The notes beneath the pieces were generated by a model. It was not told the origin of the DNA. It did not search any database and saw only the letters and a program-made list of their open reading frames with translations. Positions 25,952 through 55,952 of a DNA stretch of 64,000 bases are shown piece by piece. The DNA comes from Pontibacter sp. G13 (GTDB lineage: Bacteria > Bacteroidota > Bacteroidia > J057). The stretch's first letter is position 1. Each line of letters opens with the position of its first letter. The stretch spans positions 1,845,001 through 1,909,000 of the forward strand of contig NZ_CP134696.1 in the NCBI RefSeq assembly GCF_031851795.1, in the 5' to 3' direction. The translations under genes and the position numbers were made by a program.

Positions 25952-26143
25952 GGGCGTGCCCCTGCGATCTGGAGATGTCGTTCCTTCCCAAAGATGAGCG
26001 TCGCAGGGTCGCTCCCTTCCGGTCTCCGCTGTCGCTCCGGTCGGTGGTCAATGGACAGCTGTGCATGGGGGTGGTGACTTCTCCAACGGTTGGACTGACA
26101 TGCATGAGGCTCCACCGACTACACCTTCAGGCAGCTCACGCTC
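25952..26143 (+). repeat. Dispersed structured element, subfamily 2, copy C
   Basis: 192 bp. The closing helix is GGGCGTG (25952-25958) with CACGCTC (26137-26143). The first hairpin stem is CCCTGCGA (25960-25967) with TCGCAGGG (26001-26008), followed by GTCGCTCCCTT. It has the same length as the copy at 31353-31544 and near-identical ends, with a variable middle. It fills the first part of the sulP to bamA-like gap (25879-26444), which holds no gene. Confidence 0.85.
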
Positions 26144-26226
26144 ACACCTACCAGCCGCACCCATCAAAAATCCACGACCACACTCGCTTGGAATGGACAC
26201 TCTACAAATGTGTGGATGGCCAGCGC

Positions 26227-26431
26227 GGCGTAAGGGATAGAAAGGACGAGCGTCAGCGAGGTCCGAGGGATTGGGGATTATGATGGAGTTACAAAGTCAC
26301 CTGAGAGAGGAACTTGAGCACATATCCGATAGATGCCCGAGGACGGGAGCGCCAGCGTACTCCTGAATAGCCCGGCCACGCGTCCATGCAGTCAAGCGTC
26401 ATCGATCATGCCAGCACGCGGGGATACGCCC
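26227..26431 (-). repeat. Dispersed structured element, subfamily 1, copy E
   Basis: 205 bp, read on the minus strand. The closing helix is GGGCGTA (26431-26425) with TACGCC (26232-26227). The first hairpin is CCCCGCG with CGCGTGG (one mismatch), followed by CCGGGCT and GTACGC. It ends ATCCCTTACGCC like the copy at 45711-45913. It converges with copy C, 83 nt apart, and ends 13 nt from the stop of the BamA-like gene. Confidence 0.85.
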
Positions 26432-26444
26432 AAATCATCCCCCA

Positions 26445-27626
26445 TCAAAAAGCCTCGCCCACCATGAAATAGATGCCGCTATTGCCGGGTCTTCCCCACG
26501 CAAAATCTAGCCGTAGGGTGACATTTTCCTGTTGATTGAGGAGGAATCGGATGCCCGACCCAAAGGAGTATTTGATCTCGTCGATGGTGAAGGTCCTGAT
26601 CTCGCGGGAGACATTGGCCAGTGCGCCAAAGAAGTTGATGCCAAATCTGCGACCGATGGGCAGGCGTCCCGTGACATCCCCCCGAAAGAGCGGAATGCGG
26701 TACTCGGCCTGAATCGCCCCCATCATCTGATCGCGAAACCGGCCCTCGAAATATCCGCGATTGATGGTCTGGTGCCCCAACAGGGCTATATTTTCAAATG
26801 GAGCATCTCCCAAGGTGGCGATCCCCCGCCCCTGAAAGGCAAACACCTGACGGCCAAAAGTCTGGATATAGTGCCGGCCGTCAAATTCCCACCGCAAGAA
26901 TCGAAAATCGCTGCCCATCCAGGGATGAAACAGCACCATCGAAGTTTCTAGGTACGGCCCAGTGGTCGGCGCAAAAGAGTTGTCGCGGCGGTCGTAATTG
27001 AAGATCACCCCCAAGCCGACACTTCGTCCGCCCTCGCTTCCCAGAATATCCCCAGACGCCAATTGGCCATCCGGTTCGGCGGGCTCCACATCGAAGAATT
27101 CGTGGTATCGCAAGACCAGTCCAGACCGGAACATCGGGGTGATGCGCGTGAGATAATCGCCTCGAATCCGGATGTAGTTGGAGGAATAGTTCTCATCACC
27201 CGCTTGAGGCGTGTAGGGACCAATCCCCCAAAATCTCCTGATCCTCCGAAAGAAATCCACTGAACCTTTGACGACATGCTTGGAGTCCTGAAATCGGAGT
27301 TCGTAGGGAGCGTTGATGGCAAACTGATTGTTGAGGGAATAATATCCGACAAACTGGATGAAAGAAGGGCGTGCTTCTGGGCCATTGCCCCGAGGCACAA
27401 ACAGATACATACCTGTCACCCCAAATGCGAGCTCCGTCTCCGGCGTGTAGAAGATTACGGGGAGGGCTACGAGCTGATTGCGATTGCCCGTGACGACCTT
27501 GAGGGTATCCTCGATGGGGATGGGATCTTGGGCAAACAGCGATTCCGGACAGCCAAAAGCCATCAGGAGCAGTAAACAGCAGTATTTGACACCGGATGGA
27601 GCACCATCCTTCAGCTCTTTCAACAT
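26445..27626 (-). CDS. BamA/TamA-family outer-membrane barrel protein without POTRA domains
   Basis: 393 residues: a signal peptide (cleaved near AQ33), a short linker, then a 16-strand-type Omp85 barrel (bacterial surface antigen domain). FNYDRRDNSFAPTTGPYLETS (about 210-230) is the conserved first-strand repeat seen in TamA and BamA relatives, and LGHQTINRGYFEGRFRDQMMGAIQAEYRIPL matches the strand that carries the lid-lock-type RGY/F-RD motif. POTRA domains are missing, so a direct BamA role is unlikely. Small barrels like this occur in Bacteroidota beside enzymes or transporters. Function unknown. Confidence 0.82.
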   Translation of the reverse strand: MLKELKDGAPSGVKYCCLLLLMAFGCPESLFAQDPIPIEDTLKVVTGNRNQLVALPVIFYTPETELAFGVTGMYLFVPRGNGPEARPSFIQFVGYYSLNNQFAINAPYELRFQDSKHVVKGSVDFFRRIRRFWGIGPYTPQAGDENYSSNYIRIRGDYLTRITPMFRSGLVLRYHEFFDVEPAEPDGQLASGDILGSEGGRSVGLGVIFNYDRRDNSFAPTTGPYLETSMVLFHPWMGSDFRFLRWEFDGRHYIQTFGRQVFAFQGRGIATLGDAPFENIALLGHQTINRGYFEGRFRDQMMGAIQAEYRIPLFRGDVTGRLPIGRRFGINFFGALANVSREIRTFTIDEIKYSFGSGIRFLLNQQENVTLRLDFAWGRPGNSGIYFMVGEAF

Positions 27627-27855
27627 CTGGTAAACGTAGCGGGAAGTGCTTCGAATTTACAGGTTATTGGCTAAATCAAAAATCCAAATCATCCATATTT
27701 AACATTCACAAAATGGTCTAGATGAGAGGCTGTCGGATTTCTGGCTGACAATCATGCATTTGATATATTCTGATGCGCAGTTTTGGGGCAGAGATTGTGT
27801 AACATTCTCCTTGACAAGTGCCCTGACATTTCCCCGTTTCGAATGAAATTTTGGC

Positions 27856-27863
27856 TATATTTG
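27856..27863 (+). promoter_or_regulatory. -7 promoter box (TATATTTG) of pruA
   Basis: An exact TAnnTTTG match ending 34 nt before the pruA ATG. A weak TTTC lies 15 nt upstream of the box. Confidence 0.6.
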
Positions 27864-27897
27864 CGGATTGTCGTAACCAGTGGCAAATCAAACCATC

Positions 27898-29529
27898 ATG
27901 CAAAAAGCTTTTTTTCAGGTCCCCGTTCCCGAGAACGAACCGGTATTGAACTATGCGCCCGGAAGTACCGAGCGTGCCGAGGTTAAGCGCGTGTTGGCTG
28001 ACCTCTCCGAGCAGGAATTGGATATCCCTATGTATATCGGCTCCGAGGAAGTCCGCACCGAGGACAAACGTCCCCTGAGCCCCCCTCACAATCACCAGCA
28101 TGTGATCGGCCATTACTCTCGTGGTACTGCCGCTCATGTGCAACAGGCGATCGATGCTGCCCTTGAGGCCAAGCCAGCATGGGAAGCCATGTCTTGGGAG
28201 CACCGTGCCGCCATCTTCCTGAAAGCTGCCGACTTGCTTTCCGGTCCATGGCGTGCCCAAATGAACGCGGGTACGATGTTGGCGCAGTCCAAAAACATCT
28301 ACCAAGCGGAGATCGATGCAGTAGCCGAGTTGTGCGATTTCTTCCGCTTCAACGTAGCCTACATGCAGCAGATCTACGAAGATCAGCCTTACTCTCCACC
28401 CGGACAGTGGAACCGCATGGAGTACCGTGCGCTGGAGGGATTCGTATTCTGCATCACTCCCTTCAACTTCACCTCCATCGCTGCCAACCTGCCAGCTGCT
28501 GCTGCACTGATGGGCAATGTGTGTGTATGGAAGCCCGCTGACAGCCAGATCTACTCCGCGCACTTCATCATGGAGTTGCTCAAAGAGGCTGGATTGCCAG
28601 ATGGCGTCATCAACATGGTCTATGTAGATGGTCCTGACGCAGGTGACGTCGTATTCAAACACCCTGAATTTGCAGGTTTGCACTTCACAGGTTCCACCAA
28701 AGTATTCCAGCACCTCTGGAAAACCATTGGTGAGAACATCCACATGTACAAATCCTATCCTCGGATCGTAGGTGAAACCGGCGGTAAAGACTTCATTGTC
28801 ATCCACCCAAGTGCTGATGCAGATGCAGCAGCCACTGCGATTTCCCGTGGTGCATTTGAGTTCCAAGGGCAGAAATGTTCTGCTGCGAGCCGTGTATACC
28901 TTCCGGCTTCTCTGGCCGACCACATCATGGAGAAGGTTCAGGCTGAAGTTGAGAGCTTCAAAATGGGCGATCCTGCAGATTTCCGCAACTTCATCAATGC
29001 GGTTATCGACGAGCGCGCATTCGATAAAATCTCCAACTTCATCGATCGGGTGAAGGAGGCAGACGATGCCGAAATCGCCATCGGTGGCAACTACGACAAG
29101 TCCAAAGGCTACTTCATCGAGCCTACCGTCGTCATGACCAGCAACCCCAAGTTCCTGACCATGTGCGAGGAGATCTTCGGACCTGTGGTTACGATCTTCA
29201 CTTACGAAGATGACAAATGGGAAGAGACGCTGGAATTGGTGAATACCACCAGCCCATACGCACTGACGGGTGCTATCTTCTCCCAAGATCGCCACGTGAT
29301 CGATCAGGCTTCCCGTTACTTGCAACACGCTGCCGGTAACTACTACATCAACGACAAGCCTACCGGCGCAGTCGTAGGTCAGCAACCATTTGGTGGTGGA
29401 CGTGCTTCCGGTACCAATGACAAAGCAGGTTCTTACCTGAACTTGTTGCGTTGGGTATCTCCACGAACCATCAAGGAGACCTTCGTACCAGCGAAAGATT
29501 ATCGTTACCCATTCCTCGACGAGGAATAG
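27898..29529 (+). CDS. pruA: L-glutamate gamma-semialdehyde dehydrogenase (1-pyrroline-5-carboxylate dehydrogenase)
   Basis: It oxidises glutamate semialdehyde, from proline, to glutamate with NAD. The length of 543 residues fits the stand-alone P5C dehydrogenase of eukaryotic and Bacteroidota type, not the bifunctional PutA. Visible features are VFCITPFNFTSIAANLPAAAALMGN (183-207), the general-base glutamate E293 in GETGGKDF and the catalytic cysteine C327 in FQGQKCSAASR. The late PFGGGRASGTNDKAGS block is typical of P5CDH. The ATG at 27898 follows a promoter box and the gene ends at a terminator. Proline dehydrogenase is not in the window. Confidence 0.95.
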   Translation: MQKAFFQVPVPENEPVLNYAPGSTERAEVKRVLADLSEQELDIPMYIGSEEVRTEDKRPLSPPHNHQHVIGHYSRGTAAHVQQAIDAALEAKPAWEAMSWEHRAAIFLKAADLLSGPWRAQMNAGTMLAQSKNIYQAEIDAVAELCDFFRFNVAYMQQIYEDQPYSPPGQWNRMEYRALEGFVFCITPFNFTSIAANLPAAAALMGNVCVWKPADSQIYSAHFIMELLKEAGLPDGVINMVYVDGPDAGDVVFKHPEFAGLHFTGSTKVFQHLWKTIGENIHMYKSYPRIVGETGGKDFIVIHPSADADAAATAISRGAFEFQGQKCSAASRVYLPASLADHIMEKVQAEVESFKMGDPADFRNFINAVIDERAFDKISNFIDRVKEADDAEIAIGGNYDKSKGYFIEPTVVMTSNPKFLTMCEEIFGPVVTIFTYEDDKWEETLELVNTTSPYALTGAIFSQDRHVIDQASRYLQHAAGNYYINDKPTGAVVGQQPFGGGRASGTNDKAGSYLNLLRWVSPRTIKETFVPAKDYRYPFLDEE

Positions 29530-29556
29530 GTGAAAAGTTGTTCATACATTCAGAAG

Positions 29557-29587
29557 TGCCTGCCCCATTGGGGTGGGCATTTTTTTT
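29557..29587 (+). terminator. Terminator of pruA
   Basis: A 10-bp stem TGCCTGCCCC with GGGGTGGGCA (two wobble pairs), loop ATT, followed by eight T. Confidence 0.88.
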
Positions 29588-29758
29588 GAAGCTGCTAAGA
29601 GGAGTTCTTCATTCAGCTACAAACGCCCATCTTTAGGCCCTCAGTTGGCTTACATTTGGCAATTTCAACGTCCTGTGTGTGGATTGATTGAAGCGTTTCT
29701 GCTTCCTTTTCCAAATGCGAATGAACCTTCCCTCGATGGTCGTCATCTCAAGATTCGG

Positions 29759-29766
29759 TATCTTTG
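29759..29766 (+). promoter_or_regulatory. -7 promoter box (TATCTTTG) before the TIGR02757 gene
   Basis: An exact TAnnTTTG match only 4 nt before the ATG at 29771. The transcript would be leaderless or nearly so. Confidence 0.5.
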
Positions 29767-29770
29767 CTAC

Positions 29771-30538
29771 ATGGAATTGAAAGCCCTGCTGGACGAAAAA
29801 TACGCCGAATACAACCAACCCACATTCATCGAGGAAGATCCCATCCGGATTCCGCATCAGTTTGACCGCAAGGAGGATATCGAGATTTCGGGATTCCTCT
29901 CAGCCCTAATTGCCTGGGGGCGCCGAAGCATGATCATCCAGAATGCAGAGCGTCTCATGGAACGAATGGATTGGGCGCCGCACCAATTCGTGATGCATGC
30001 CAATGAGGACGAATTGGGGAGATTGTCAGGCTTTGTGCACAGAACATTCAATGAAGTGGATGCCCGTGGATTGGTGCTTTCGCTTCGCTCGGTCTATGAG
30101 CAACATGGCGGCCTCAACCAGATTTTCGCGGCGGGCATATCTCCTGATGATGAGGATGTTTATCATGGTATCATCCATGCCCGAGAGATCTTGCTGAGTC
30201 ATCCAAAGCTACAAGGTCGCACCCACAAGCATGTCGCCAACCCCGCCAAAGGCTCCTCTGCCAAGCGCATCAATATGTATTTGCGGTGGATGGTTCGCCC
30301 TAATTCGGCAGGGGTGGATTTCGGAATTTGGGAAGGCATCTCCCCGAGTCAATTGATCTGCCCATTGGATGTCCATACCGGCAATGTCGCGCGGGCATTG
30401 GGGCTCCTGACCCGGAAGCAAAACGATTGGAAGGCCGCCTCGGAACTCACCCAAAATCTCCGTGCCTTTCATCCCGAAGATCCTGTGAGATACGATTTCA
30501 GCTTATTTGCGCTGGGGGTGTATGAGGGTGTGAAGTAG
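29771..30538 (+). CDS. TIGR02757-family protein
   Basis: 255 residues, soluble. It matches the Bacteroidota-enriched TIGR02757 family in its landmarks: DPIRIPHQFDRKEDIEISGFLSALIAWGRRSMI (about 28-58), SAKRINMYLRWMVRPNSAGVDFGIWEGISPSQLICPLDVHTGNVARALGLL (about 158-210) and an HPEDPVRYDFSLFALGV ending. The helix-hairpin region with conserved K-R-x-x-M-Y and P-L-D-V-H-x-G resembles DNA glycosylase/HhH folds, but no activity is established. The start at 29771 is preferred over an in-frame start far upstream, because the pruA terminator and promoter box lie between. Confidence 0.85.
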   Translation: MELKALLDEKYAEYNQPTFIEEDPIRIPHQFDRKEDIEISGFLSALIAWGRRSMIIQNAERLMERMDWAPHQFVMHANEDELGRLSGFVHRTFNEVDARGLVLSLRSVYEQHGGLNQIFAAGISPDDEDVYHGIIHAREILLSHPKLQGRTHKHVANPAKGSSAKRINMYLRWMVRPNSAGVDFGIWEGISPSQLICPLDVHTGNVARALGLLTRKQNDWKAASELTQNLRAFHPEDPVRYDFSLFALGVYEGVK

Positions 30539-30549
30539 ATGTTTTCAAG

Positions 30550-31134
30550 TCACAAGGCAATCTGGATGGCGGTCAACCTTGCCTCGGTTCTGAAGGGGAG
30601 CTCTTCAAGGAATTGAATATCACGGGTGAGCAGATACTGCTCGTAATCATCCGAGCCATAGAATCCCCCCACATCCATCAAGTCGTCAAACCAGAAACGG
30701 ACCTTGAGCTTGGGGTCTACGAATTCGAGATCGTAAAATTCTGATTCTGGGACGATATCCTTGCCATAGTGCTCCAGAAAATCTGTGAGCAGCACACCCG
30801 GTTTGATTCCGTTGGGGAGTTCGAAGCAACTACTGGTGGCCGTCATTTCAAAGATGGCGGAATCCTCATCCCTCAATTGCAAGAGCAGATAATCGGTCCC
30901 TAGATTGATCTTGAGGCCCAACCAAGTATCGTCGGCATCGTCTCCCATCTCGATCTGTTCAATTTCCAGATCCAGGCTTTCCACCCAAGTATCGTCATAT
31001 TGTTCTCCGAGGCGAAAGGGTCCCATCCCCTGTGGGGTAATCATGAAAGGGCCCAAATGGGCGATCGGACAGGGCTTGTGACCGGAGGGGGATTCCACGG
31101 ACTCAGGGACTTCGGGTGAATGATCGATTGTCAT
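30550..31134 (-). CDS. Hypothetical protein, acidic, unknown function
   Basis: 194 residues from the ATG at 31134 (MTIDHSPEV); an earlier in-frame start at 31200 would add 22 poorer residues. It is very acidic, with a beta-rich middle (GPFMITPQGMGPFRLGEQYDDTWVESL, LGTDYLLLQLRDEDSAIFEMTATSSCFELPNGIKPGVLLTDFLEHYG). That layout recalls small lipoprotein-like or regulatory domains, but no signal peptide is visible and no family is recognised. Convergent with the TIGR02757 gene, 11 nt apart. Confidence 0.7.
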   Translation of the reverse strand: MTIDHSPEVPESVESPSGHKPCPIAHLGPFMITPQGMGPFRLGEQYDDTWVESLDLEIEQIEMGDDADDTWLGLKINLGTDYLLLQLRDEDSAIFEMTATSSCFELPNGIKPGVLLTDFLEHYGKDIVPESEFYDLEFVDPKLKVRFWFDDLMDVGGFYGSDDYEQYLLTRDIQFLEELPFRTEARLTAIQIAL

Positions 31135-31352
31135 GTGCAAAGGCAATGATACTTCGGGGCATTGCAGGGAATAGATGCAATGCTGGAGGATGAAGGCCAC
31201 TAGTTATCGTCTGCACGAAGTAATGAAGAAATTGGGGGATACGCACGATGGATGCCTGAAAAATCAAACAATCGTAGAGCGGAATAGGGCAATAGGTCCG
31301 CACCCCCAGATATTTCTATCGCCCATCGACTCAAGGTGCGGCAGGCTGGTGC

Positions 31353-31544
31353 GAGCGTGAGCTGCCTGAAGGTGTAGTCGGTGGAGCCTGATGCCTGTCT
31401 GGCAAACCGTTGGAGTAGCCTTCACCAACATGTTCAGTTGCCCAATGGCTACCGACCGCAGCGTCAGCGAAGACCGAAAGGGAGCGACCCTGCGACGCTC
31501 ATGCTCAGGAAGGACCCTCATGCCAAGATCGCAGGGGCACGCCC
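31353..31544 (-). repeat. Dispersed structured element, subfamily 2, copy D
   Basis: 192 bp on the minus strand. The closing helix is GGGCGTG (31544-31538) with CACGCTC (31359-31353), and the first stem is CCCTGCGA with TCGCAGGG as in copy C. Its middle differs from C but contains its own helix GTAGCC/GGCTAC. The gap 31201-31638 holds this element, a terminator and no gene. Confidence 0.85.
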
Positions 31545-31570
31545 AAATGCTCATCATGATCCCAAGCCCT

Positions 31571-31607
31571 AAAAGCAATCAGCCGGCACCCAAAAGGATG
31601 CCGGCTG
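31571..31607 (-). terminator. Terminator of the first SusC/SusD operon
   Basis: A 9-bp stem CAGCCGGCA with TGCCGGCTG, followed on the minus strand by ATTGCTTTT, about 30 nt after the SusD stop. Confidence 0.75.
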
Positions 31608-31638
31608 AAAAAATATCTAATGCCTAAGTGGGAACGGA

Positions 31639-32970: not shown

Positions 32971-32993
32971 TGTAAGTCTTTTTGAAGCCGGGA

Positions 32994-35969: not shown

Positions 35970-36214
35970 AAAAACAAAGCGTTAGAGTTGTGAATTGTCT
36001 GAGTAACAATATGAATGGTACATCAACAAATCTCAGAAGGTGCGAGAAACGCAAATACTGAAATTCACGATCCATTCACATAACCCTCATCTATAAGAAA
36101 TAAAAGCGTTCAAAAGTTTGTTCGAATCTCCAATCTTCTACCATCATTAAGAAATTATTGCACTGACAATCAACGGCTAAACATAGATCACATCAAAAAA
36201 AATTCGCTTTTCGA

Positions 36215-36245
36215 CAAATCTATAATCCACTGATAATCAGGCAAA
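36215..36245 (-). promoter_or_regulatory. Bacteroidota promoter of the first SusC/SusD operon
   Basis: On the minus strand TTTG (36245-36242), 19 nt, then TAGATTTG (36222-36215) match the -33 and -7 consensus exactly. This gives a leader of about 240 nt before the ATG at 35969. The end of that leader, ACTCTAACGCTTT followed by a short AT stretch and ATG, is repeated upstream of the second SusC. The gap 35970-36792 contains this, the hairpin at 36437-36458 and the terminator at 36713-36745, and no convincing gene. Confidence 0.7.
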
Positions 36246-36745: not shown

Positions 36746-36792
36746 CAGCTTTGATTCATGAGCGCTTAGGCGCTGGGACAACGAGTAAGTGT

Positions 36793-45426: not shown

Positions 45427-45710
45427 ATCGAGTATTTCTTTTTTCCGAAAAGGCCGTCTATTGCGCAACGGCCCGCGATTGCATGTTGAGCGAATGTACC
45501 CAACCATGCCGAGTATTCCCTAACAACCACTTGGACAGTCAGGGGTTTCAGGGAACCACCTGATCAATCGGTGCCTTTTTTCAAGAAATGACCCACTGGG
45601 ACGCATTAGAACGGGTTATCGTCGGTTCAGACCTCTTGTGCCATTTGAAGAAAATATGTAAAAACTAGCCAAAAGGCAGGCATCCTTACTTGGGATGATG
45701 TGGATGATCA

Positions 45711-45913
45711 GGGCGTATCCCCGCGTGCTAGACAGCAGTTTTCTGCTTGGCAGCTGCGTCGCGGGGCCGGGCTTTTCGGGGGTACGCGATCGCTTCCGTC
45801 CTCGCCTGATCGATCCTTGCTCGATGTATTAGGCATCCATACCAGTTGGCCTCCTTTGGCACGAATTCCAACTCGGACCTCGCCAAGGGCTCGCCCCTAC
45901 TATCCCTTACGCC
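45711..45913 (+). repeat. Dispersed structured element, subfamily 1, copy B
   Basis: 203 bp. The closing helix is GGCGTA (45712-45717) with TACGCC (45908-45913). The first stem is CCCCGCG (45719-45725) with CGCGGGG (45760-45766), followed by CCGGGCT and GGGTACGC(G)ATCGCTTCC. It lies about 170 bp before the Rpn gene. The rest of the 45427-46087 gap shows no gene. Confidence 0.85.
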
Positions 45914-46087
45914 GCACCTTCCAACCGCACATGAGGAACTGGGCACCCCCGTATAGATACCATCGTCCCCGTACAAACACCCTCGTTTTGAGATTTTGAG
46001 AAAGCAGGAGTTAATACCCGATTTGAAAATTAATCCACTCCTTCTCTGGCATTTTTCGGAGGTTGGCCCCCCTATTTCAACAAACAC

Positions 46088-47056
46088 ATGCAGGATAAAT
46101 ATCTCAACTTCATGACAGATTTCGCCTTCAAGCGAATTCTGGGGGAAGGAGCACACTCGCATTTATTGGTCCATCTATTGAATGCGTTGCTTCCGCACCA
46201 GCCCCCCAGCATTTCCGTCACCATTCATTCATCGGAACACCGGATGGATTCCCCCGAAGATCGGATTGCTATATTTGACATCTTCCTCTCCAATGAACGA
46301 GATGCCAAATTCATCTTCGAAGCACAACGCAACCCGCAAGAATTCTATGTGAAAAGGGCCATCTTCTATGCCCTTCGCCCGATAGTCGATCAAGGCAGGA
46401 AAGGAAGACAGTGGAATTTCGACTTCCAGCCCGTCAGCCTATTGAGTATCTTGGATTTCGAATATGAATTTAGATTGCCGGACAAGTATTATCACCGGGC
46501 ACATATTCGGTATTTCGATTCAGATTTTGTACTTTCTGATGATCTCGCTCTGGTGATGGTGGAACTCCCAAAGTTCACCAAACACTTGGCAGAACTTGAA
46601 ACAGATCTCGACCATTGGTTGTATCTGTTTAGGCATTTGCACACGCTTACGGAAATTCCCGAAACCTTCAAACGCGAACCATTCATGCAAATCTTCGAAA
46701 TTGCCGAGATGATCAACATGACCGAGGAGGAACGCCGTGCATACCAAGCAAGCCTCAAGCGATACCGCGATTACCACAATCAGATGGATTACAATCGCAA
46801 AAAGGCCTTAAAGGAAGGCGTTCAACAAGGGATCGAGCAGGGAATCGAGCAGGGAATCGAGCAGGGCAAAGTGCTTGGTATTGAAGAAGGAATGCTTCAT
46901 TCAGCTGAGAACAGCTTCAAAATAGGCCTGACTCTGGAGATTATTCAAGCGGTAACAGCTATTCCCCGCGAGGAGCTTTTGGCACTTCGAGAAACGTGGC
47001 TAGAAGCTCGGATGGGACAATCTAGCAGGGTAGATGAACCATCAGGAAAAGCGTAG
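46088..47056 (+). CDS. Rpn-family recombination-promoting nuclease / putative transposase (PD-(D/E)XK)
   Basis: 322 residues. The N-terminus YLNFMTDFAFKRILG (5-19) is the family signature. The PD-(D/E)XK-like site has D64 in IFDIFLSNE and E78-A-Q80 in FIFEAQRNP. The second half (about 130-322) is helical, with a tandem GIEQ repeat near 248-259 and the usual LTLEIIQAVTAIPREEL ending. Rpn proteins are DNases first linked to RecA-independent recombination; in several bacteria they are toxic anti-phage factors restrained by a product of their own C-terminal half. Residues 142-309 are duplicated in the next gene. Confidence 0.9.
   Translation: MQDKYLNFMTDFAFKRILGEGAHSHLLVHLLNALLPHQPPSISVTIHSSEHRMDSPEDRIAIFDIFLSNERDAKFIFEAQRNPQEFYVKRAIFYALRPIVDQGRKGRQWNFDFQPVSLLSILDFEYEFRLPDKYYHRAHIRYFDSDFVLSDDLALVMVELPKFTKHLAELETDLDHWLYLFRHLHTLTEIPETFKREPFMQIFEIAEMINMTEEERRAYQASLKRYRDYHNQMDYNRKKALKEGVQQGIEQGIEQGIEQGKVLGIEEGMLHSAENSFKIGLTLEIIQAVTAIPREELLALRETWLEARMGQSSRVDEPSGKA
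46511..47023 (+). repeat. 513-bp direct repeat, first copy (3' half of the Rpn gene)
   Basis: Bases 46511-47016 are identical to 47134-47639 as far as I can compare by eye. One mismatch follows, then six more shared bases to 47023. The offset is 623 bp and the reading frame is kept. A 12-bp tandem triplication (46829-46864) is included in both copies. Confidence 0.93.
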
Positions 47057-47082
47057 CACACCTCTTCCCTCAGATAGCTAAG

Positions 47083-47130
47083 AGGGACCGAAAACGGATG
47101 CCTCCCGTGAGACAGCCACTTTCGGTCCTT
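47083..47130 (+). terminator. Hairpin between the Rpn gene and its duplicate
   Basis: An 11-bp stem (47083-47093 with 47120-47130, one wobble) over a 26-nt region that contains an imperfect inner stem and the ATG of the duplicate gene (47098). The inner bases (GGATGCCTC ... GAGACAGCC) resemble those of the terminator at 47696-47733, so this may be the original terminator carried along. There is no clear T-tract. Confidence 0.45.
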
Positions 47131-47679
47131 CAATATTTCGATTCAGATTTTGTACTTTCTGATGATCTCGCTCTGGTGATGGTGGAACTCCCAAAGTTCA
47201 CCAAACACTTGGCAGAACTTGAAACAGATCTCGACCATTGGTTGTATCTGTTTAGGCATTTGCACACGCTTACGGAAATTCCCGAAACCTTCAAACGCGA
47301 ACCATTCATGCAAATCTTCGAAATTGCCGAGATGATCAACATGACCGAGGAGGAACGCCGTGCATACCAAGCAAGCCTCAAGCGATACCGCGATTACCAC
47401 AATCAGATGGATTACAATCGCAAAAAGGCCTTAAAGGAAGGCGTTCAACAAGGGATCGAGCAGGGAATCGAGCAGGGAATCGAGCAGGGCAAAGTGCTTG
47501 GTATTGAAGAAGGAATGCTTCATTCAGCTGAGAACAGCTTCAAAATAGGCCTGACTCTGGAGATTATTCAAGCGGTAACAGCTATTCCCCGCGAGGAGCT
47601 TTTGGCACTTCGAGAAACGTGGCTAGAAGCTCGGATGGGTCAATCTTCCCCTCTGGCCAAGCCACCGGGAGCGCACTAG
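47098..47679 (+). CDS. Truncated Rpn paralogue: C-terminal half without nuclease domain
   Basis: 193 residues. The first 12 (MPPVRQPLSVLQ) are new, the next about 169 equal residues 142-309 of the upstream Rpn protein, and the last 9 differ (PLAKPPGAH). The PD-(D/E)XK core is absent. It may be a decaying fragment, but the frame is fully open and it ends 17 nt before a strong terminator. In studied Rpn genes an internally started small product (RpnS) neutralises the full nuclease, so this could be a separately encoded antitoxin (inference). Internal ATG codons also exist, the first at the equivalent of Rpn residue 157. Confidence 0.65.
   Translation: MPPVRQPLSVLQYFDSDFVLSDDLALVMVELPKFTKHLAELETDLDHWLYLFRHLHTLTEIPETFKREPFMQIFEIAEMINMTEEERRAYQASLKRYRDYHNQMDYNRKKALKEGVQQGIEQGIEQGIEQGKVLGIEEGMLHSAENSFKIGLTLEIIQAVTAIPREELLALRETWLEARMGQSSPLAKPPGAH
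47134..47646 (+). repeat. 513-bp direct repeat, second copy
   Basis: The second copy of 46511-47023, with a single mismatch at 47640. Near-identity implies a recent duplication or ongoing gene conversion. Confidence 0.93.
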
Positions 47680-47695
47680 TCTCTTTGGATTCCAT

Positions 47696-47733
47696 AAAAA
47701 AAGCGGCTGCCTCTACCGAGACAGTCGCTTTTT
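47696..47733. terminator. Bidirectional terminator between the truncated Rpn gene and prfB
   Basis: A 12-bp stem (AGCGGCTGCCTC with GAGACAGTCGCT, one mismatch and one wobble) flanked by A7 on the left and T5 on the right, so it can end transcripts from both convergent genes. Confidence 0.85.
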
Positions 47734-47751
47734 GGCAAGTATGTGGGAATA

Positions 47752-48850: not shown

Positions 48851-48948
48851 GCGTATTGACAGGTTGTAGTTGGATCTCAGCTGGAGTAAAAACCCATACT
48901 CCTAGCTAGATGCGACAGTTCTTGAGTAAATATCACCGCAAATCGCGG

Positions 48949-48956
48949 CAAAAGTA
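48949..48956 (-). promoter_or_regulatory. -7 promoter box (TACTTTTG) of prfB
   Basis: An exact TAnnTTTG match on the minus strand, about 100 nt upstream of the prfB ATG. In the rest of the 48851-49211 gap, a weaker TAGATTGC at 49097-49104 could serve transketolase. Nothing else is seen there. Confidence 0.5.
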
Positions 48957-49211
48957 GAGCGAATTTACAGTCAGTCCTGCCCACACACAAATTCGTTTGC
49001 AATCCGCTACGTACGACAGACTTTCCGCAACGTGCAAAACACCCCAACATTCATACATTCAGCTTGCTCACATTAACTTTTCGGGGGTTTACTTGTTAGA
49101 TTGCAGCTGAAAACTTGCGTGGAATCTAGGGAAATCCGATACTTGTAGTCAAAATGACAATAAGACCCCGGAAGGATTCCACCACCAAACAACGAATCAA
49201 CTGGACACATC

Positions 49212-51272
49212 ATGTCTGATCAAACGCTAACTCAAGGAAACAACGCATTGGCGACCCAAGCTGCTGACAACATCCGCATCTTGAGCGCGGCCATGGTCGA
49301 GAAAGCCAAATCCGGCCACCCTGGCGGCGCTATGGGCGGTGCGGACTACGTGAACATCCTGTTCTCTGAATTCCTAGAATTCGACCCCTCTGACCCAACT
49401 TGGCCATTCCGCGATCGATTCTTCCTTGATCCCGGCCACATGTCCCCCATGCTCTACTCTCAACTCGCTCTGACTGGTCACTTCACCTTGGATGAGTTGA
49501 AAGAATTTCGCCAATGGGGAAGCCCAACCCCCGGCCACCCAGAACTCGATGTAAAACGCGGGGTGGAAAACACCTCCGGTCCATTGGGTCAAGGACATGC
49601 CTTTGGGGTAGGTGCAGCCATCGCCGAGCGTTTTCTCGCGGCTCGATTCGGTGAGTGGACTTCCCACAAGACCTATATCTACATTTCTGATGGTGGGGTT
49701 CAGGAGGAAATCTCCCAAGGGGTTGCTCGTGTAGCAGGGTTCCTTGGATTGGGCAATGTGATCATGTTCTATGATTCCAACGACATCCAACTTTCTTCCA
49801 AAGTGGATGACGTCATGAACGAGGACACCGGCGCCAAATATGCCGCCATGGGATGGCACGTCCAGACCATCGAGGGGAATAACCCTGACGAAATCCGCAA
49901 GGCCATCCAAAATGCCAAAGCAGAGACAGGCAAACCATCCTTGATCATCGGCAAGACGATCATGGGCAAAGGCGCTCGTACCGAATCAGGCGGTAGCTTC
50001 GAAGGGGAGGTGGAAACACACGGTATGCCTTTGAGCAAAGCAGGGGCTTCTTTCGAGGCAACTATGGCCAACTTGGGGGGCGATCCAGAAAACCCATTCG
50101 TGATCTTCCCAGAGGTACAGGCATACTATGACCAGGCTTTGACTGCCAAAAAGGCTGCAGCAGAAACCAAAAAAGCCGCTCAGGCCGAATGGGCCACCGC
50201 CAACCCTGAACTGGCTGCCAAACTGGATTTCTTCCTCTCCGGAAACTTGCCCGAGATCGATTGGGCTTCCATCGAGCAGAAACCCAACAATGCAACTCGT
50301 AACTCCGGCGGTGCTGTATTGGCATACCTCCACGATCATGTAGAGAACATCGTCGTTTCATCTGCTGACTTGTCCAATTCAGACAAGACTCAAGCATTCC
50401 TCAAGAAAACCACCATTTTCCGCAAAGGAGACTTCCACGGTCGATTCCTCCAAGCTGGGGTATCCGAGATGACCATGGCTGCATTGTGTGTGGGAATGTC
50501 CTTGCATGGGGGGGTTGTGCCTGTATGTGCCACCTTCTTCGCATTCTCTGACTTCATGAAGCCGACCTTGCGTTTGGCGGCATTGATGGAGCAGCCTGTG
50601 AAATTCGTCTGGACACACGATGCCTTCCGCGTCGGGGAAGATGGACCTACCCACCAGCCGATTGAGCAGGAAGCACAGTTGCGCTTGTTGGAGCAATTGC
50701 AGAACCACAGCCACAAGAATAGCTTCTTGGCACTTCGCCCAGCAGATGCAAATGAGGCGACCATCGCTTGGAAAATGGCCATCGAAAATGTCGATACGCC
50801 ATCCGGAATGATCCTTTCTCGCCAGAATATCAATGATCTTCCGGGTTCTAGCTACGAGTTCGCCCTTCAGGCTGAAAAAGGCGCATACATCGTTGAGGAT
50901 TCCGAAGGCACCCCAGATCTGATCTTGGTCGCCAACGGTTCCGAAGTAGCCACGTTGGTAGAAGGTGCCGCCAAGCTTCGTGCAGAGAAAGGATTGAAAG
51001 TACGCGTTGTTTCTGCCATCTCCGAAGGCCGTTTCCGCGATCAATCTGCGGAGTATCAGGCTTCTGTACTCCCAACTTCTGTTCCTACGGTAGGCTTGAC
51101 AGCTGGCTTGCCTGTCACACTCCGTGGCTTGGTAGGACCATTGGGAATGGTGATCGGATTGAACCACTTTGGATTCTCAGCACCTTACAAAGTGCTGGAC
51201 GAGAAATTTGGATATACCGCGGAGAACGTATTCAACAAGTCTGTTGAGTTCTTGGCGAGTTTGAATCAATAA
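49212..51272 (+). CDS. tkt: Transketolase
   Basis: It transfers two-carbon ketol units in the pentose phosphate pathway using thiamine diphosphate. It is full length at 686 residues with all three domains. Early motifs are KSGHPGGAMGGADY (about 34-47), GHMSPMLYS (about 76-84) and GPLGQG (about 120). The ThDP/Mg motif is SDGGVQEE...DSNDIQLSS (about 158-196) and the pyrimidine-domain block is FVWTHDAFRVGEDGPTHQPIEQ. The C-terminal domain ends GYTAENVFNKSVEFLASL. An insert of about 20 Ala/Lys-rich residues (LTAKKAAAETKKAAQAEWATANPELAAK, about 310-338) is visible. It ends at a terminator and stands upstream of xylulokinase; the products of the two genes meet in xylulose 5-phosphate metabolism. 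Confidence 0.96.
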   Translation: MSDQTLTQGNNALATQAADNIRILSAAMVEKAKSGHPGGAMGGADYVNILFSEFLEFDPSDPTWPFRDRFFLDPGHMSPMLYSQLALTGHFTLDELKEFRQWGSPTPGHPELDVKRGVENTSGPLGQGHAFGVGAAIAERFLAARFGEWTSHKTYIYISDGGVQEEISQGVARVAGFLGLGNVIMFYDSNDIQLSSKVDDVMNEDTGAKYAAMGWHVQTIEGNNPDEIRKAIQNAKAETGKPSLIIGKTIMGKGARTESGGSFEGEVETHGMPLSKAGASFEATMANLGGDPENPFVIFPEVQAYYDQALTAKKAAAETKKAAQAEWATANPELAAKLDFFLSGNLPEIDWASIEQKPNNATRNSGGAVLAYLHDHVENIVVSSADLSNSDKTQAFLKKTTIFRKGDFHGRFLQAGVSEMTMAALCVGMSLHGGVVPVCATFFAFSDFMKPTLRLAALMEQPVKFVWTHDAFRVGEDGPTHQPIEQEAQLRLLEQLQNHSHKNSFLALRPADANEATIAWKMAIENVDTPSGMILSRQNINDLPGSSYEFALQAEKGAYIVEDSEGTPDLILVANGSEVATLVEGAAKLRAEKGLKVRVVSAISEGRFRDQSAEYQASVLPTSVPTVGLTAGLPVTLRGLVGPLGMVIGLNHFGFSAPYKVLDEKFGYTAENVFNKSVEFLASLNQ

Positions 51273-51279
51273 TCATACT

Positions 51280-51312
51280 CGGGAGACTTCTCTGGAAGTC
51301 TCCCGCTTTTTC
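51280..51312 (+). terminator. Terminator of transketolase
   Basis: An 11-bp stem CGGGAGACTTC with GAAGTCTCCCG followed by T5, 8 nt after the stop. Confidence 0.92.
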
Positions 51313-51452
51313 TTCCCTATTGGGAACAAACGCTATCGTGTAGGCCCAGGTCATCTTTTTTGAAGCTATAGAAGCTGCATTCGTCAGCATACATCCATAG
51401 CCATTTTCTCTCATTTCCCCCGGACAGCGGGGTAACCTCAACATTGTACTAC

Positions 51453-52934
51453 ATGCTTCTGCTTGGATACGATATAGGCTCCTCTTCCGTCAAAGCCGCT
51501 CTGGTGGACGGACATTCAGGCAAAACCTTGGCCTCGACTTTCTATCCCAAATCCGAACTGGAAATATCTGCCCCACATCAAGGTTGGGCAGAGCAGTCCC
51601 CTGAAACCTGGTGGTCATGTATTCAAGCTGCCACCCAAGAATTGCTGGCGAATCCCGATATCGACGCTTCCGCCATTGGAGCTATTGGGATATCCTACCA
51701 AATGCACGGTTTGGTAGTTGTGGACAAAGCAGGAGAAGTGATTCGCCCTTCTATCATCTGGTGCGATAGTCGAGCGGTCGAAATTGGTGAACAAGCCTTT
51801 CAAGAAATGGGGGAAGCCCATTGCCTTTCCCATTTTTTGAATTCTCCCGGAAACTTCACAGCCTCCAAGCTCAAGTGGGTCAAGGAGAATGAGCCCGAGC
51901 AATATGCACGCATCCACAAAATGATGCTGCCAGGAGACTACATCGCCTACCAATTGACAGGTGAAATCCGAACGACTATCTCGGGCCTTTCTGAAGGAAT
52001 CCTCTGGGACTTCGAGGAAGATACTCCCGCCAAGGCGCTATTGGCTCACTATGGGATCGAGGAATCCTTGCTTCCCGAGATTGTCCCTACTTTTGGAGAA
52101 CAGGGACGGGTATCCGCCGATGCAGCCCAATTGCTGGGCATTCCCGCGGGTATCCCCGTCTCGTATCGAGCAGGAGACCAACCCAACAACGCATTTTCCC
52201 TAAACGTCCTCAACCCCGGAGAAATCGCCGCGACTGCCGGCACCTCCGGGGTGGTATATGGCGTCAGTGGCACGGTAAAGTACGATGCACAATCTCGCGT
52301 CAACTCTTTCGCTCACGTCAACCACGGCGAAGAAACGCGCTTAGGAGTTCTGCTCTGCATCAATGGAACAGGCATTCTGAACAACTGGCTCCGCAAAAAT
52401 GTCGGAGGTGGAATCGACTACGTGGGAATGAATCAAGCCGCCGAACAAGTGGCAATCGGTTCTGATGGATTGGTGGTCCTGCCATTTGGAAATGGCGCGG
52501 AGCGGGTATTGGGCAACAGAGATTTCGGGAGCCAAGTGAATGGCCTTGATTTCAATCGACATGGCCAAGGACACCTTTTCAGGGCAGCACAAGAAGGAAT
52601 CGTCTATGCCTTCCACTATGGCATGGACATCATGGAACAAATGGGAATTAAACCGGCAGTAATTCGGGCGGGGCAGGCGAACATGTTCCTCAGCCCGATC
52701 TTCCGGCAAACTTTGGCCGATGTCACGCAAGTGCCGATCGAATTATACGACACAGACGGAGCCGTGGGAGCAGCCAGAGGAGCTGGCGTCGGTGCTGGCT
52801 TCTACCCTAGCCCAGCGTCTGCATTCGAACGGCTAGAACTCCTAGAACGCATCGAACCACAGACAGTCCATCAAGCAGCCCAGCAAGACGCCTATGAACG
52901 CTGGCAAACCTGTCTGGAAAATTATTTGACCTGA
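51453..52934 (+). CDS. xylB: Xylulokinase (FGGY carbohydrate kinase)
   Basis: It phosphorylates D-xylulose to xylulose 5-phosphate, which transketolase then uses. The protein has 493 residues from the ATG at 51453. The N-terminal ATPase motif is LLLGYDIGSSSVKAALVDG, the substrate loop SYQMHGLVVVDKAGEVIRPSIIWCDSRA, and the second-domain blocks GDQPNNAFSLNVLNPGEIAATAGTSGVVYG and the FGGY-like AVIRAGQANMFLSPIFRQTLADV. The length and the MHG motif favour xylulokinase over glycerol or gluconate kinases. Xylose isomerase is not in the window. Separated from tkt by a terminator. Confidence 0.9.
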   Translation: MLLLGYDIGSSSVKAALVDGHSGKTLASTFYPKSELEISAPHQGWAEQSPETWWSCIQAATQELLANPDIDASAIGAIGISYQMHGLVVVDKAGEVIRPSIIWCDSRAVEIGEQAFQEMGEAHCLSHFLNSPGNFTASKLKWVKENEPEQYARIHKMMLPGDYIAYQLTGEIRTTISGLSEGILWDFEEDTPAKALLAHYGIEESLLPEIVPTFGEQGRVSADAAQLLGIPAGIPVSYRAGDQPNNAFSLNVLNPGEIAATAGTSGVVYGVSGTVKYDAQSRVNSFAHVNHGEETRLGVLLCINGTGILNNWLRKNVGGGIDYVGMNQAAEQVAIGSDGLVVLPFGNGAERVLGNRDFGSQVNGLDFNRHGQGHLFRAAQEGIVYAFHYGMDIMEQMGIKPAVIRAGQANMFLSPIFRQTLADVTQVPIELYDTDGAVGAARGAGVGAGFYPSPASAFERLELLERIEPQTVHQAAQQDAYERWQTCLENYLT

Positions 52935-52944
52935 ACATGTATGT

Positions 52945-52975
52945 AAGGGTGTCCAAATTTGGGCACCCTTTTTTT
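52945..52975 (+). terminator. Terminator of xylB
   Basis: A 10-bp stem AAGGGTGTCC with GGGCACCCTT (one wobble), loop AAATTT, followed by T5. Confidence 0.9.
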
Positions 52976-53277
52976 GTCATCTGGATCGAAGATTGGAGCG
53001 CAACCAAAAGGGGCATTCGCGCAGGTTCATTCATCCCGTATTTCTATCATTCCCGAGCCAATCCGCACCATTCAAGAGGCATTGCAAACATTCCCTGAAA
53101 TTTCCTTCGCGAAAGCCGAATAAATTCCAGTTATTCCATACGAATTCATCATCTGGAAAAAGGAATATTTCCACTACCAGCATCAGCAGACTCGATCCAA
53201 TTTGCAGGTAGTCAAACCAATTTTCCCAGCAGATCAATTCCTTTCATCACACTGTCATCTAATTTCAAAATACCTGC
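52976..53277. other. Gap of about 300 bp, no convincing gene
   Basis: Between the xylB terminator and the DUF4301 gene. Short frames on both strands (a hydrophobic 68-residue frame on the minus strand at 53031-53237 among them) lack any support. No repeat or promoter consensus is found. Confidence 0.45.
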
Positions 53278-54810
53278 ATGTTCACCGATCAAGACCTCGA
53301 TCAAATTCGCGAGCGGGGAAGTGACCTTGCCGAAGTCAATCAGCAAATCCAGAACTTCGTTGAAGGCTTTCCCTTCATGGATCTCCAAAAAGCAGCCACC
53401 GTGGACGACGGGATTATCCGGTTGTCCCAGGAGGAAGTAGATTCATATCTTCAGCAGTACCAAACTGCGTTGGCTGACAAGAAGATCGTCAAGTTCGTAC
53501 CCGCTTCTGGCGCGGCCTCCCGCATGTTCAAGGCGCTATTCGCGTTCATGAACACCTATTCGCCTGAGCAGCGTGCAGAATTTGAGGAAAAGCAAGCCCC
53601 AAAAGATGCTTTCACATTCATCGATCGCATCGAGGACTTCGCTTTTACCCCTTCCCTGAAAAAGACCTTCCAAAATGGCGATTTCGGCCATGTCATCGAA
53701 TCTGGACACTATGGAACTGTCATCGATCATCTGTTGACTTCTGCCGGACTCAATTATGGACAACTGCCCAAAGGCCTGCTGGAATTTCATAGCTACGGAG
53801 CAGCTACCCGAACTCCCGTAGAAGAACATCTTGTCGAAGCCGCCAATTACGCCACCCAACAAGGGGGAACTGCCTGGTTGCACTTCACCGTGAGTCCTGA
53901 GCACCGCAGTCGCTTCGAGGCACACTTGGCTGAAGTGATGCCCAAGTACCAAGAAGAATTCGGAGTGAAGTTTGACGTAACTTTCTCCGAGCAAAAATCT
54001 TCTACCGACACCATCGCGGTCGACATGGAGAATCAGCCATTTCGTCTCGATGATGGCTCTATCTTGTTCCGCCCGGGAGGTCATGGCGCTTTGCTGGAAA
54101 ACCTCGATGACTTGGAAGGGGATATCTTCTTCATCAAAAACATCGACAACGTCGTCCCAGACCGAATCAAGGAAGAGACCTACCGATACAAGCAAGCGCT
54201 CGGAGGATTGCTACTGGAAGTGCAGGCACAGGTATTCACCTATCTCGAAAAACTCGAAGCAGGTGAGACGAGCCTCAAAAGCGAAATCGAGGAATTCCTC
54301 AAAACCAAGCTTTACACCCTTCCTCCAGCGGGATATGCCGATTGGAGCGAGGAGGACCAAATCGCATTCCTCAAGTCCAAGCTGGATCGCCCCATGCGTA
54401 TTTGCGGCATGGTGAAAAACGAAGGAGAGCCGGGAGGTGGACCATTCTGGACCCAGAATTCCGATGGAACCGTTTCCCTCCAAATCGTGGAAAGCGCCCA
54501 GATCGACAAGGACAATGCCGACCAAATGGCCCTGATGCAAAATGCGACCCACTTCAACCCTGTGGATCTCGTATGCGCAACCAAGGACCGCCACGGGAAG
54601 GATTATGAACTCCTGAACTTCCGTGATCCCCAAACCGGATTCATCGCCTACAAATCCAAGGATGGCCGCGAGCTCAAAGCGCAGGAACTTCCCGGACTGT
54701 GGAACGGTGCAATGGCTAATTGGAGCACCATCTTTGTGGAAGTGCCGATCATCACTTTCAACCCGGTCAAAACTGTGAACGACCTGTTGCGCGATCAGCA
54801 CCAAGGATAG
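53278..54810 (+). CDS. DUF4301 family protein
   Basis: 510 residues, soluble. It matches the Bacteroidota family DUF4301 along its length, including the KFVPASGAASRMFKALF segment (about 70-86) that resembles the nucleotide-binding start of sugar nucleotidyltransferases, PKGLLEFHSY (about 160-170), DDGSILFRPGGHGALLENL (about 256-275) and MRICGMVKNEGEPGGGPFW (about 372-390). These blocks suggest a GT-A-like nucleotidyltransferase activity, but no reaction is established. Monocistronic, ending at a strong terminator. Confidence 0.85.
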   Translation: MFTDQDLDQIRERGSDLAEVNQQIQNFVEGFPFMDLQKAATVDDGIIRLSQEEVDSYLQQYQTALADKKIVKFVPASGAASRMFKALFAFMNTYSPEQRAEFEEKQAPKDAFTFIDRIEDFAFTPSLKKTFQNGDFGHVIESGHYGTVIDHLLTSAGLNYGQLPKGLLEFHSYGAATRTPVEEHLVEAANYATQQGGTAWLHFTVSPEHRSRFEAHLAEVMPKYQEEFGVKFDVTFSEQKSSTDTIAVDMENQPFRLDDGSILFRPGGHGALLENLDDLEGDIFFIKNIDNVVPDRIKEETYRYKQALGGLLLEVQAQVFTYLEKLEAGETSLKSEIEEFLKTKLYTLPPAGYADWSEEDQIAFLKSKLDRPMRICGMVKNEGEPGGGPFWTQNSDGTVSLQIVESAQIDKDNADQMALMQNATHFNPVDLVCATKDRHGKDYELLNFRDPQTGFIAYKSKDGRELKAQELPGLWNGAMANWSTIFVEVPIITFNPVKTVNDLLRDQHQG

Positions 54811-54828
54811 TTCTACCAAAGGAATCGA

Positions 54829-54864
54829 AAAAGGGCTCACATCTCGCTGGATGTGGGCCCTTTT
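54829..54864 (+). terminator. Terminator of the DUF4301 gene
   Basis: A stem of about 15 bp, AAAAGGGCTCACATC with GATGTGGGCCCTTTT (one wobble), 18 nt after the stop. Confidence 0.88.
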
Positions 54865-55057
54865 AGGTTGCAGAAGATTGCCAAACAGGTAGCATCACCA
54901 GACGCTCCCACAGCGCGTTGAGTACGCGAATTCGCAGAGCCCTATACCAAGTATCCAAAAATTTCGACATATACATTTATTCAACTATAAGGACCATGTG
55001 ATTGTTTTTTTAACATATTGCATATTCCGAAAAATTAACCTTACCAAAACAGCTATT

Positions 55058-55693
55058 ATGAGAAAATGTACATTTTTCCTAATCTTACCTTTCTTACTGA
55101 CCCTCGCCTGCCATGCTCAGACGAGATTCCCAAATTGTGGGGAACTTACGGTTACCGAAATCAATTTCACATCCGATAGCACCCTGAGTGTCACAGTTTA
55201 CAATGATTGCGACACCTGCTACCAGCATGTGTACACCGGACTCGAAATCTATGATGAATCGGACTCGTTGATCGCAGAAAGCACAATTCCCAATTCTTCT
55301 CCCTCTCCGCTCGGCAAAGATGATCATACCTATGAGATGATCTCTGATCAGGCGTTCACTTTGGCAAACATCCGCCGAATCGTGATGACCGATCAGCTCT
55401 GCGATTCCATGACGATTGACCTGAATTCCTCTTTGGGACTTGGGGATGATTTCGCGGACAATCGCATCAACTTGGAGATCTACCCAAATCCCGCCTCGGG
55501 CCAAGTTCATCTCCTCAATCCAGACCAGCACCTAATTTCAAAAGCCACAGTCTTCAATCTTCAAGGACAAAATCTCGGGACCATTCGCCCGATCGCGGAA
55601 TCATTGAGCGTCCGGCATTTACCCGCTGGCACCTACCTACTGGTCCTCGACCTTAGGACTACCCAACTGATCAAGCGATTGACCATCCAATAA
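55058..55693 (+). CDS. Small secreted protein with T9SS type A sorting domain
   Basis: 211 residues from the ATG at 55058: signal peptide MRKCTFFLILPFLLTLACHAQ, then a beta-rich mature region of about 110 residues with a Cys pair (NDCDTCYQH). The C-terminal sorting domain (about 137-211) has the hallmark EIYPNPASGQVHL, the central VFNLQGQNLGTI and the ending LPAGTYLLVLDLRTTQLIKRLTIQ. Type A domains direct export through T9SS and removal or attachment at the cell surface. The function of the mature part is unknown. Confidence 0.88.
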   Translation: MRKCTFFLILPFLLTLACHAQTRFPNCGELTVTEINFTSDSTLSVTVYNDCDTCYQHVYTGLEIYDESDSLIAESTIPNSSPSPLGKDDHTYEMISDQAFTLANIRRIVMTDQLCDSMTIDLNSSLGLGDDFADNRINLEIYPNPASGQVHLLNPDQHLISKATVFNLQGQNLGTIRPIAESLSVRHLPAGTYLLVLDLRTTQLIKRLTIQ

Positions 55694-55745
55694 GGTTTTC
55701 TGCTAGCAATTAGAAGATTTCCTGAAAGGATTGGAAGGCGAATTT

Positions 55746-55952
55746 GGGCGTGCCCTCGCGAGTTGGATATGAGGTTCCCGTCTGACAAATGGGCGCGAGG
55801 TCGGGCTCTGCGCGGGTACGCTATCGCTTCCGTCCTTCAGGATACATAGGGAGCTGAGTCATTTGGCCATTCACATCAGACCTACTAGCCAATCAGGACA
55901 TCTCCACCCCTTCGGACTGCTCCCAAGGTCGCACCGCTCCGATCCCTCACGC
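55746..55952 (+). repeat. Dispersed structured element, subfamily 1, copy A
   Basis: 207 bp. The closing helix is GCGTG (55748-55752) with CACGC (55948-55952). The first stem is CCTCGCG (55754-55760) with CGCGAGG (55794-55800), followed by GTCGGGCT and GGGTACGC(T)ATCGCTTCC. It lies between the T9SS cargo gene and a broken PD-(D/E)XK gene end; the gap 55694-56050 holds nothing else. Confidence 0.85.

Follow-up and report, generated by a model that had tools for sequence, protein, structure and literature searches.

What keeps the two sides of a hairpin complementary when its sequence changes from copy to copy? This question is raised by five elements, here called A to E, in a stretch of 64,000 nucleotides from Pontibacter sp. 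G13 (contig NZ_CP134696.1, positions 1,845,001 to 1,909,000 of the forward strand); this whole stretch is called the window in the following. An initial annotation, made from the sequence alone, noted that the closing helix and the first hairpin of the five elements change on both sides together, and it proposed that this reflects selection on a fold, in RNA or in single-stranded DNA, and not on a protein. The joint changes are correct on inspection of the five elements, with one unpaired position in the first hairpin of element E. The answer towards which we lean, with some reserve, is that the elements are a dispersed non-coding repeat which acts as folded DNA and not through a protein or a stable RNA, and which would be read by its shape in trans and copied or pasted, with its arms exchanged.

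The repeat family is real and larger than first claimed. The genome consists of 7.67 Mb on three contigs, and BLAST searches gave 40 places with element A as the query and 58 with element C. We aligned 28 copies and built a model (R1) from 27 of them, leaving out L008 and removing a variable middle stretch. R1 matches all of the 150 scored candidates with E 2.1e-9 or better, which means at least 150 copies in the genome, and further copies beside these candidates turned up in a later model search. The lengths of the copies cluster near 163 and near 220 bases, as set by a variable stretch within the helix called P5 below. Both small contigs have copies, at C2:38900-39108 and C3:78377-78538; the copy on C2 lies within a 632-base stretch which is ~91% identical to the chromosome at locus L245.

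In most cases the similarity among copies breaks off abruptly, on the left side at ATTTGGGC and on the right side at CCGCAC; some larger duplications exist. The unit proposed initially, GGGCGT and onwards to its complement, holds as the core of the element but not as the full repeated unit: ATTT precedes GGGCGT, and most copies extend ~18 bases past the closing helix, the 3' end being ..CCAGCCGCAC. It should be noted that the motif GGGCGTR by itself is about as frequent in the window as expected by chance (12 versus 10.7 occurrences), whereas the whole element is above chance.

RNAalifold proposed 24 pairs on the alignment of 28 copies, 15 of them with double changes, and six helices were assigned. 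The element is closed by P1. The first hairpin is called P2, and a second arm has P3 and P4 at its base and P5 and P6 further in. The statistics of the pairs are based on 137 copies taken from the window and 99 loci (100 sources, which hold a part of the copies). Here 93.3% of 4,087 cells are paired, 25 of the 31 pairs show double changes, and 609 cells are double-changed compared to a mean of 151 after shuffling. Sliding the partner by 1-3 columns makes the pairing drop to 35-52% and the covariation score fall from 0.401 to at most 0.101. The four variable pairs of P1 have no unpaired cell; 128 of their cells are double-changed and none is changed on one side only. P2 is paired in 98.9%. In an unsupervised covariation scan of the best 110 of the 137 rows the strongest columns are mostly helix pairs; the P2 loop (TTGGCA) had been suspected of pairing with the 3' tail (TGCCAG), but this pairing is outside the 70 strongest covarying column pairs in these 110 rows. 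Covariation in an expanded alignment, on which the initial annotation had staked its proposal, is thus strong, and it supports that a fold rather than a protein is under constraint, the arms being paired through selection or through copying of one arm from the other. The elements are also intergenic, as claimed: four open reading frames (ORFs) of 99-144 amino acids, called mechanically over B, C/E and D, match no Pfam family at E up to 0.1, and neighbouring genes do match.

Since these copies are paralogues and were aligned to fit the structure, shuffles and counts lean towards the fold. The measure of further pair types was equalled by 34 of 500 shuffles. The bias from paralogy and alignment is answered in part by elements from other lineages. 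They come from a pattern scan of named records (the named scan) in which the search pattern leaves one closing pair free, and this pair is Watson-Crick in 109 of 113 elements (107 loci, among the matches listed; shuffled mean 49.9, maximum 71 in 2,000 shuffles). Among the same 113 elements there are 103 distinct P2 sequences, and the inner P2 pairs which are flanked by Watson-Crick pairs are themselves Watson-Crick in 205 of 233 cases, with 2 G.T.

The family is present well outside this genome, so the initial concern that the copies might be confined to it does not apply. R1 matches 6 of 30 other genomes among the relatives. Within the phylum, 44 of 296 genomes (this one counted) match the exact pattern, the highest number of matches being 34 in one genome; some of these matches, e.g. 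L086 and L087, have no 3' end and look like chance. The named scan gave at least 120 stretches. Among the 80 records listed, 73 have titles which we read as Bacteroidota, four are Fibrobacter(ales) from two genomes, and the remainder are one Spirochaetales metagenome-assembled genome (MAG), one Schlesneria MAG and one unplaced bacterium. The four non-Bacteroidota genomes have 8, 4, 15 and 3 pattern matches and zero with the reversed pattern, so they are not single strays; binning error is possible for these occurrences. The annotator's remark that similar GGGCGT...CCCTnACGC sequences occur in other Bacteroidota is thereby borne out by R1 and the pattern scans, with Fibrobacterota and two further MAGs in addition. 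As to a phage or plasmid vehicle, an idea which was set aside, 3 contigs in IMG/VR match the exact element pattern, and PLSDB had no match to one 141-base query taken from another organism.

Smaller relatives are already catalogued as Flavo-1 (RF01705), described in 2010 (Weinberg et al., PMC2864571), so the family is not categorically new. Rfam files RF01705 as gene, small RNA (sRNA). At ten out of ten loci of other organisms a Flavo-1 match (E up to 1) overlaps the three-armed element on the complementary strand; five of these matches are above the gathering score and five below, L181 reaching E 0.47 only. At further loci 4 of 16 elements match Flavo-1 at the gathering score. According to three alignments the Flavo-1 model, with 76 positions, covers the inner (second) arm and is without the P1 strands and P2. 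This is the same inner arm, modelled on the complement of the strand written here, and it is common to Flavo-1 and the present family through intermediate members.

In the window no Flavo-1 match reaches the threshold of 42 bits, and element A gave none at E up to 5. Six loci of this genome gave nothing relevant at E up to 1, and among 134 scored candidates of the genome there was no match at E up to 0.001. In one genus six genomes were scored with 134 candidates each; five of them have 74-109 matches among these candidates, and the sixth has 25. The best-scoring Flavo-1 copies end differently, typically beginning with GAGC/GAAGC and finishing with ..GGGCTA, and R1 matches none of 8 high-scoring Flavo-1 loci compared to 12 of 12 three-armed loci given from the named scan. 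There are thus two branches or more, classical Flavo-1 and a three-armed GGGCGT..ACGC branch in which the copies of this genome are a long, divergent form. The family thus looks like a divergent, three-armed branch of the catalogued and functionally unexplained Flavo-1. New, as far as the literature was searched, are the three-armed branch, its abundance in this genome and the evidence for an interpretation at the level of DNA; a literature search with sequence strings of the element gave only papers which by title were apparently unrelated.

Is the folding material DNA or RNA, and which strand folds? The P1-P5 helices contain 3,346 cells, of which 3,298 are Watson-Crick, 7 G.T, 15 C.A, 16 C.T and 10 others. 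RNA helices tolerate G.U, and in a small control of 17 tRNAs 23 of 364 pairs wobble; this tolerance, expected of a structured RNA, is nearly absent from the elements on either strand (7 and 15 of the 3,346 cells). Mismatches are conserved at certain positions between the helices. Columns 10/73 have C.T or T.C in 103 of 121 copies (shuffled mean 69, maximum 83 in 1,000 shuffles) and columns 79/406 in 116 of 136 (shuffled mean 89, maximum 98), so that the two bases swap jointly. Unlike these, columns 85/401 show no joint swap between C.T and T.C, and columns 84/402 and 86/400 are near-invariant T.C or C.T and hence uninformative. On the complementary strand these mismatches are G.A, and G.A pairs can be stable in both DNA and RNA.

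When the model structure is imposed, the complement has a lower energy than the written strand in all of the best 110 copies (of 137), with DNA and RNA parameters alike, and because of this agreement the energy comparison indicates the strand and not the material. For the free-minimum energy the complement is lower in 103 of 110 copies with DNA parameters and in 73 of 110 with RNA parameters. In these energy models the folded strand is probably the complement of the written strand. The near absence of wobble together with the swapping of mismatches favours a DNA fold, likely of this complement, and the folding material is thus probably DNA and not RNA.

It is unlikely, in our judgement, that the elements instead are small RNAs or structures in messenger RNA, in the way Rfam lists RF01705. 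An RNA fold would probably be on the complement, where the G.A mismatches are stable and where the energies with RNA parameters also point. The upstream ORF, as called by a crude method, is codirectional with the element in 80 of 128 cases, and in F. psychrophilum several 5' transcribed regions coincide with Flavo-1 matches according to the passage on Flavo-1 in a transcriptome study (PMC9723704). The same passage assigns no function to Flavo-1, and the matches it describes are seemingly sense or antisense alike, with many of them outside the transcribed regions. This is at variance with an RNA, as are the near absence of wobble, the presence of at least 150 copies with unlike arms in one genome, and the doublets: of 23 pairs of copies with less than 500 bases between them, 22 are arranged tail to tail.

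How the elements change over time was followed at orthologous sites. The first such site belongs to a large genus, presumably Flavobacterium, from the same class. Of 31 loci there, 8 have an element by the pattern, one of them doubtfully, and a few more seem to be decayed; the divergence of the flanks is too great for an empty site to be defined. The loci L348 and L353 at the first site have flanks which are 97-98% identical, and the tip hairpin is wholly exchanged between them. At the second site (L398) the flanks of the relatives are 80-97% identical and their elements differ in P2 and in the tip, and at the third (L385) an orthologous P2 pair has gone from C:G to G:C. Altogether 8 of 15 sites have a relative with both flanks in hand, and the element is present in 16 of 17 relatives, one being unsettled. 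The arms thus appear to change as hairpin modules while the site stays occupied. With respect to insertion, the left flank is ATTT-like also elsewhere (A 0.50, then T 0.76, 0.73 and 0.69 in 156 elements, of which one at most belongs to this genome), and the right flank of these 156 elements shows a purine preference only. Target duplications were not in convincing excess over permuted flanks (best 110 of 137 copies).

We propose the following mechanism. The duplex opens, and one strand, likely the complement of the written one, would fold into a three-way junction in which P1 closes the structure, P2 is one arm, and P3-P4 bearing P5 and P6 is the other arm, with conserved G.A mismatches. An enzyme acting in trans would read the shape more than the sequence, and would insert the unit between genes by copying or pasting, frequently after ATTT and without target duplication. 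Later the arms would be swapped between copies as hairpin modules and kept near-perfectly paired. The proposal builds directly on the repeat nature of the elements, their sharp ends, the covariation, the little wobble, the mismatch swap at two positions, the tail-to-tail pairs and the differing arms at orthologous sites. There is a likeness to the attC sites of integrons, where a single DNA strand folds and is recognised through its shape, and where mismatches and a variable tip occur as well; the core sequences differ from those of attC, and the present elements are dispersed singly or as inverted pairs. More tentatively, Flavo-1 and its three-armed relatives may all be a widespread, shape-defined mobile DNA and not RNAs, moved or rewritten as folded single strands by an as yet unrecognised enzyme, with interchangeable arms and an identity which would lie in the junction geometry and the G.A mismatches more than in the sequence. 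The proposal that a family filed under small RNAs is in reality folded DNA can be tested, and the many copies, which vary naturally in sequence around a single shape, can be used to seek the enzyme reading it.

Several observations weigh against this mechanism. No transposase or other enzyme was linked to the elements. None of the 8 sites of 15, with 16 of the 17 relatives occupied, gave a clean empty site, so that movement lacks a recent example. A strand bias on the chromosome is absent, the best two-part split being 92 of 148 compared to a 95th percentile of 94 for shuffles (148 of the 150 matches, those on contig C1). P6 is paired in 68.4% only, which probably is due to two registers. The tRNA control for wobble is small. 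Finally, the perfection of the arms could arise by template-switch correction without selection.

Such mutational upkeep is a real rival explanation, in which imperfect palindromes are made perfect by template switching or hairpin-primed copying and the fold as such is not selected. It would fit that one-sided changes are almost absent beside the 609 double-changed cells, that arms of arbitrary sequence are near-perfect, and that tips without conserved sequence are near-perfect palindromes as well. However, the junction sequence, the positions of the mismatches and the closing helix, with its strands ~75-200 bases apart, are recognisable across distant genomes. This argues for selection or for an enzyme reading the fold, and we consider it quite improbable that upkeep by mutation is the full explanation.

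Mobile systems with some of the same features are known. The elements resemble repetitive extragenic palindromic (REP) sequences, bacterial interspersed mosaic elements and REPINs in being dispersed, intergenic and palindromic, in their high copy number, in the inverted doublets (the 22 of 23 close pairs above) and in the lack of target duplication. One could thus imagine that they are mobilised by RAYT (TnpA-REP) HUH transposases, and Bacteroidetes RAYTs, subclass 2.6, are flanked by atypical structures according to PMC6006769. Of 11 genomes with the element 8 have a Y1 match, versus 7 of 14 others. Three RAYT genes, from two genomes, have an element at most ~4 kb away; two of these genes are at orthologous positions and count as one site. 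Against this, both Y1 genes of the present genome are flanked by their own, different repeats, so that the arrangement of a repeat flanking its RAYT gene (REPtron) is not found in this genome; 7 of 8 RAYT genes elsewhere look alike in this respect by eye, and the element-bearing genomes G248, G232 and G029 are without a Y1 match. The structure also differs: in place of the 21-65 nt structure, a short hairpin with a GT[AG]G foot (PMC6006769), there is a three-way junction of ~75-230 bases, here mostly 160-230 bases and behind ATTT. The family search and the gene flanks together make mobilisation by RAYT/Y1 very improbable. The Y1/RAYT-type genes of this genome are located on C1 at ~1435526 (L327) and ~5488564 (L342), each among its own repeats, which are of the GTCAGGGAATGAAATTCCCTG.. 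and CGCGGACT..AGTCCGCG types.

Miniature inverted-repeat transposable elements of DDE transposons, e.g. MITECca01 of Cardinium (PMC9769881), are likewise short and non-coding with inverted ends and many copies. The ends of the present elements differ from these by varying in sequence yet staying paired, and target-site duplication is in no convincing excess (110 copies, compared to permuted flanks). An autonomous parent with the same ends was not met in the loci read; no systematic search was made. A PD-(D/E)XK transposase, which has a gene beside element B, was rejected as a general partner, as its relatives occur in only 3 of the 99 element loci of the genome.

That the elements are transcription terminators or gene 3'-end elements spreading with their neighbours is hardly credible: the element starts a median of ~80 bases past the upstream stop in codirectional cases, and at one orthologous site it is directly 3' of a terminator, but this one-locus impression failed as a general rule in the 156 elements, where hairpins or T-runs are not clearly enriched upstream, and furthermore the ends are precise, the similarity is mostly confined to the element, and the upstream ORF is opposite in 48 of 128 copies.

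In the window the covariance model finds exactly the five elements of the initial annotation and at the places given there; of the limits, the ends given for C and D do not hold, since they run 2 bases beyond the closing CACGC. The coordinates used here are model matches, and they take in 2 bases 5' and ~17 bases 3' of the closing helix. A, B and E form one subfamily (1), C and D the other (2). Element A, a long form, is located at 55744..55969 on the plus strand (138.5 bits, E 5.5e-33), and its core is 55746-55952; the conserved 3' tail is missing from this element. In this element, all on the plus strand, P1 joins GCGTG at 55748..55752 with CACGC at 55948..55952, P2 joins CCTCGCG at 55754..55760 with CGCGAGG at 55794..55800, and the first three pairs of P3 join 55803..55805 (GGG of TCGGGCT) with 55944-55946 (CCC of ATCCCT). 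Element B, also a long form, is at 45709..45929 on the plus strand (138.4 bits). Element E, at 26211..26433 on the minus strand (120.6 bits), is the second partner of a tail-to-tail pair with element C, at 25950..26159 on the plus strand (65.7 bits, E 1.3e-14), with 51 bases between them. Element D is at 31337..31546 on the minus strand (65.8 bits, E 1.3e-14).

Some copies elsewhere have tips worth noting. The subfamily 2 copies at L272, L313, L300, L257, L252, L269 and L041 have a conserved tip hairpin core, GGCGA(G/T)..TCGCC, and the arms flanking it co-vary, GATCTGGGGG../..CCCCCAGATC versus GAATCTGTGGG../..CCCACAGATTC. At L203, L209, L210 and L218 the tip of the element contains a stretch of the ATTGCGAGGA..GGCAATC kind, which we take to resemble another dispersed repeat; tips seem to take up other sequences.

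The neighbouring genes in the window are ordinary by Pfam: a sulfate permease, an Omp85-like protein, a nuclease-type transposase and, beside A, a Por_Secre_tail domain, which suits a member of the Bacteroidota, as does the company in which the element occurs. The PD-(D/E)XK nuclease-family transposase gene adjoining element B is at 46088-47056 on the plus strand. It is followed at 47098-47679, on the same strand, by a second frame whose product is ~92% identical to the transposase over 192 residues. At the other end, positions 1-3013 on the minus strand are an rRNA operon with tRNA-Ile and tRNA-Ala, the large-subunit gene of which is cut by the start of the window.

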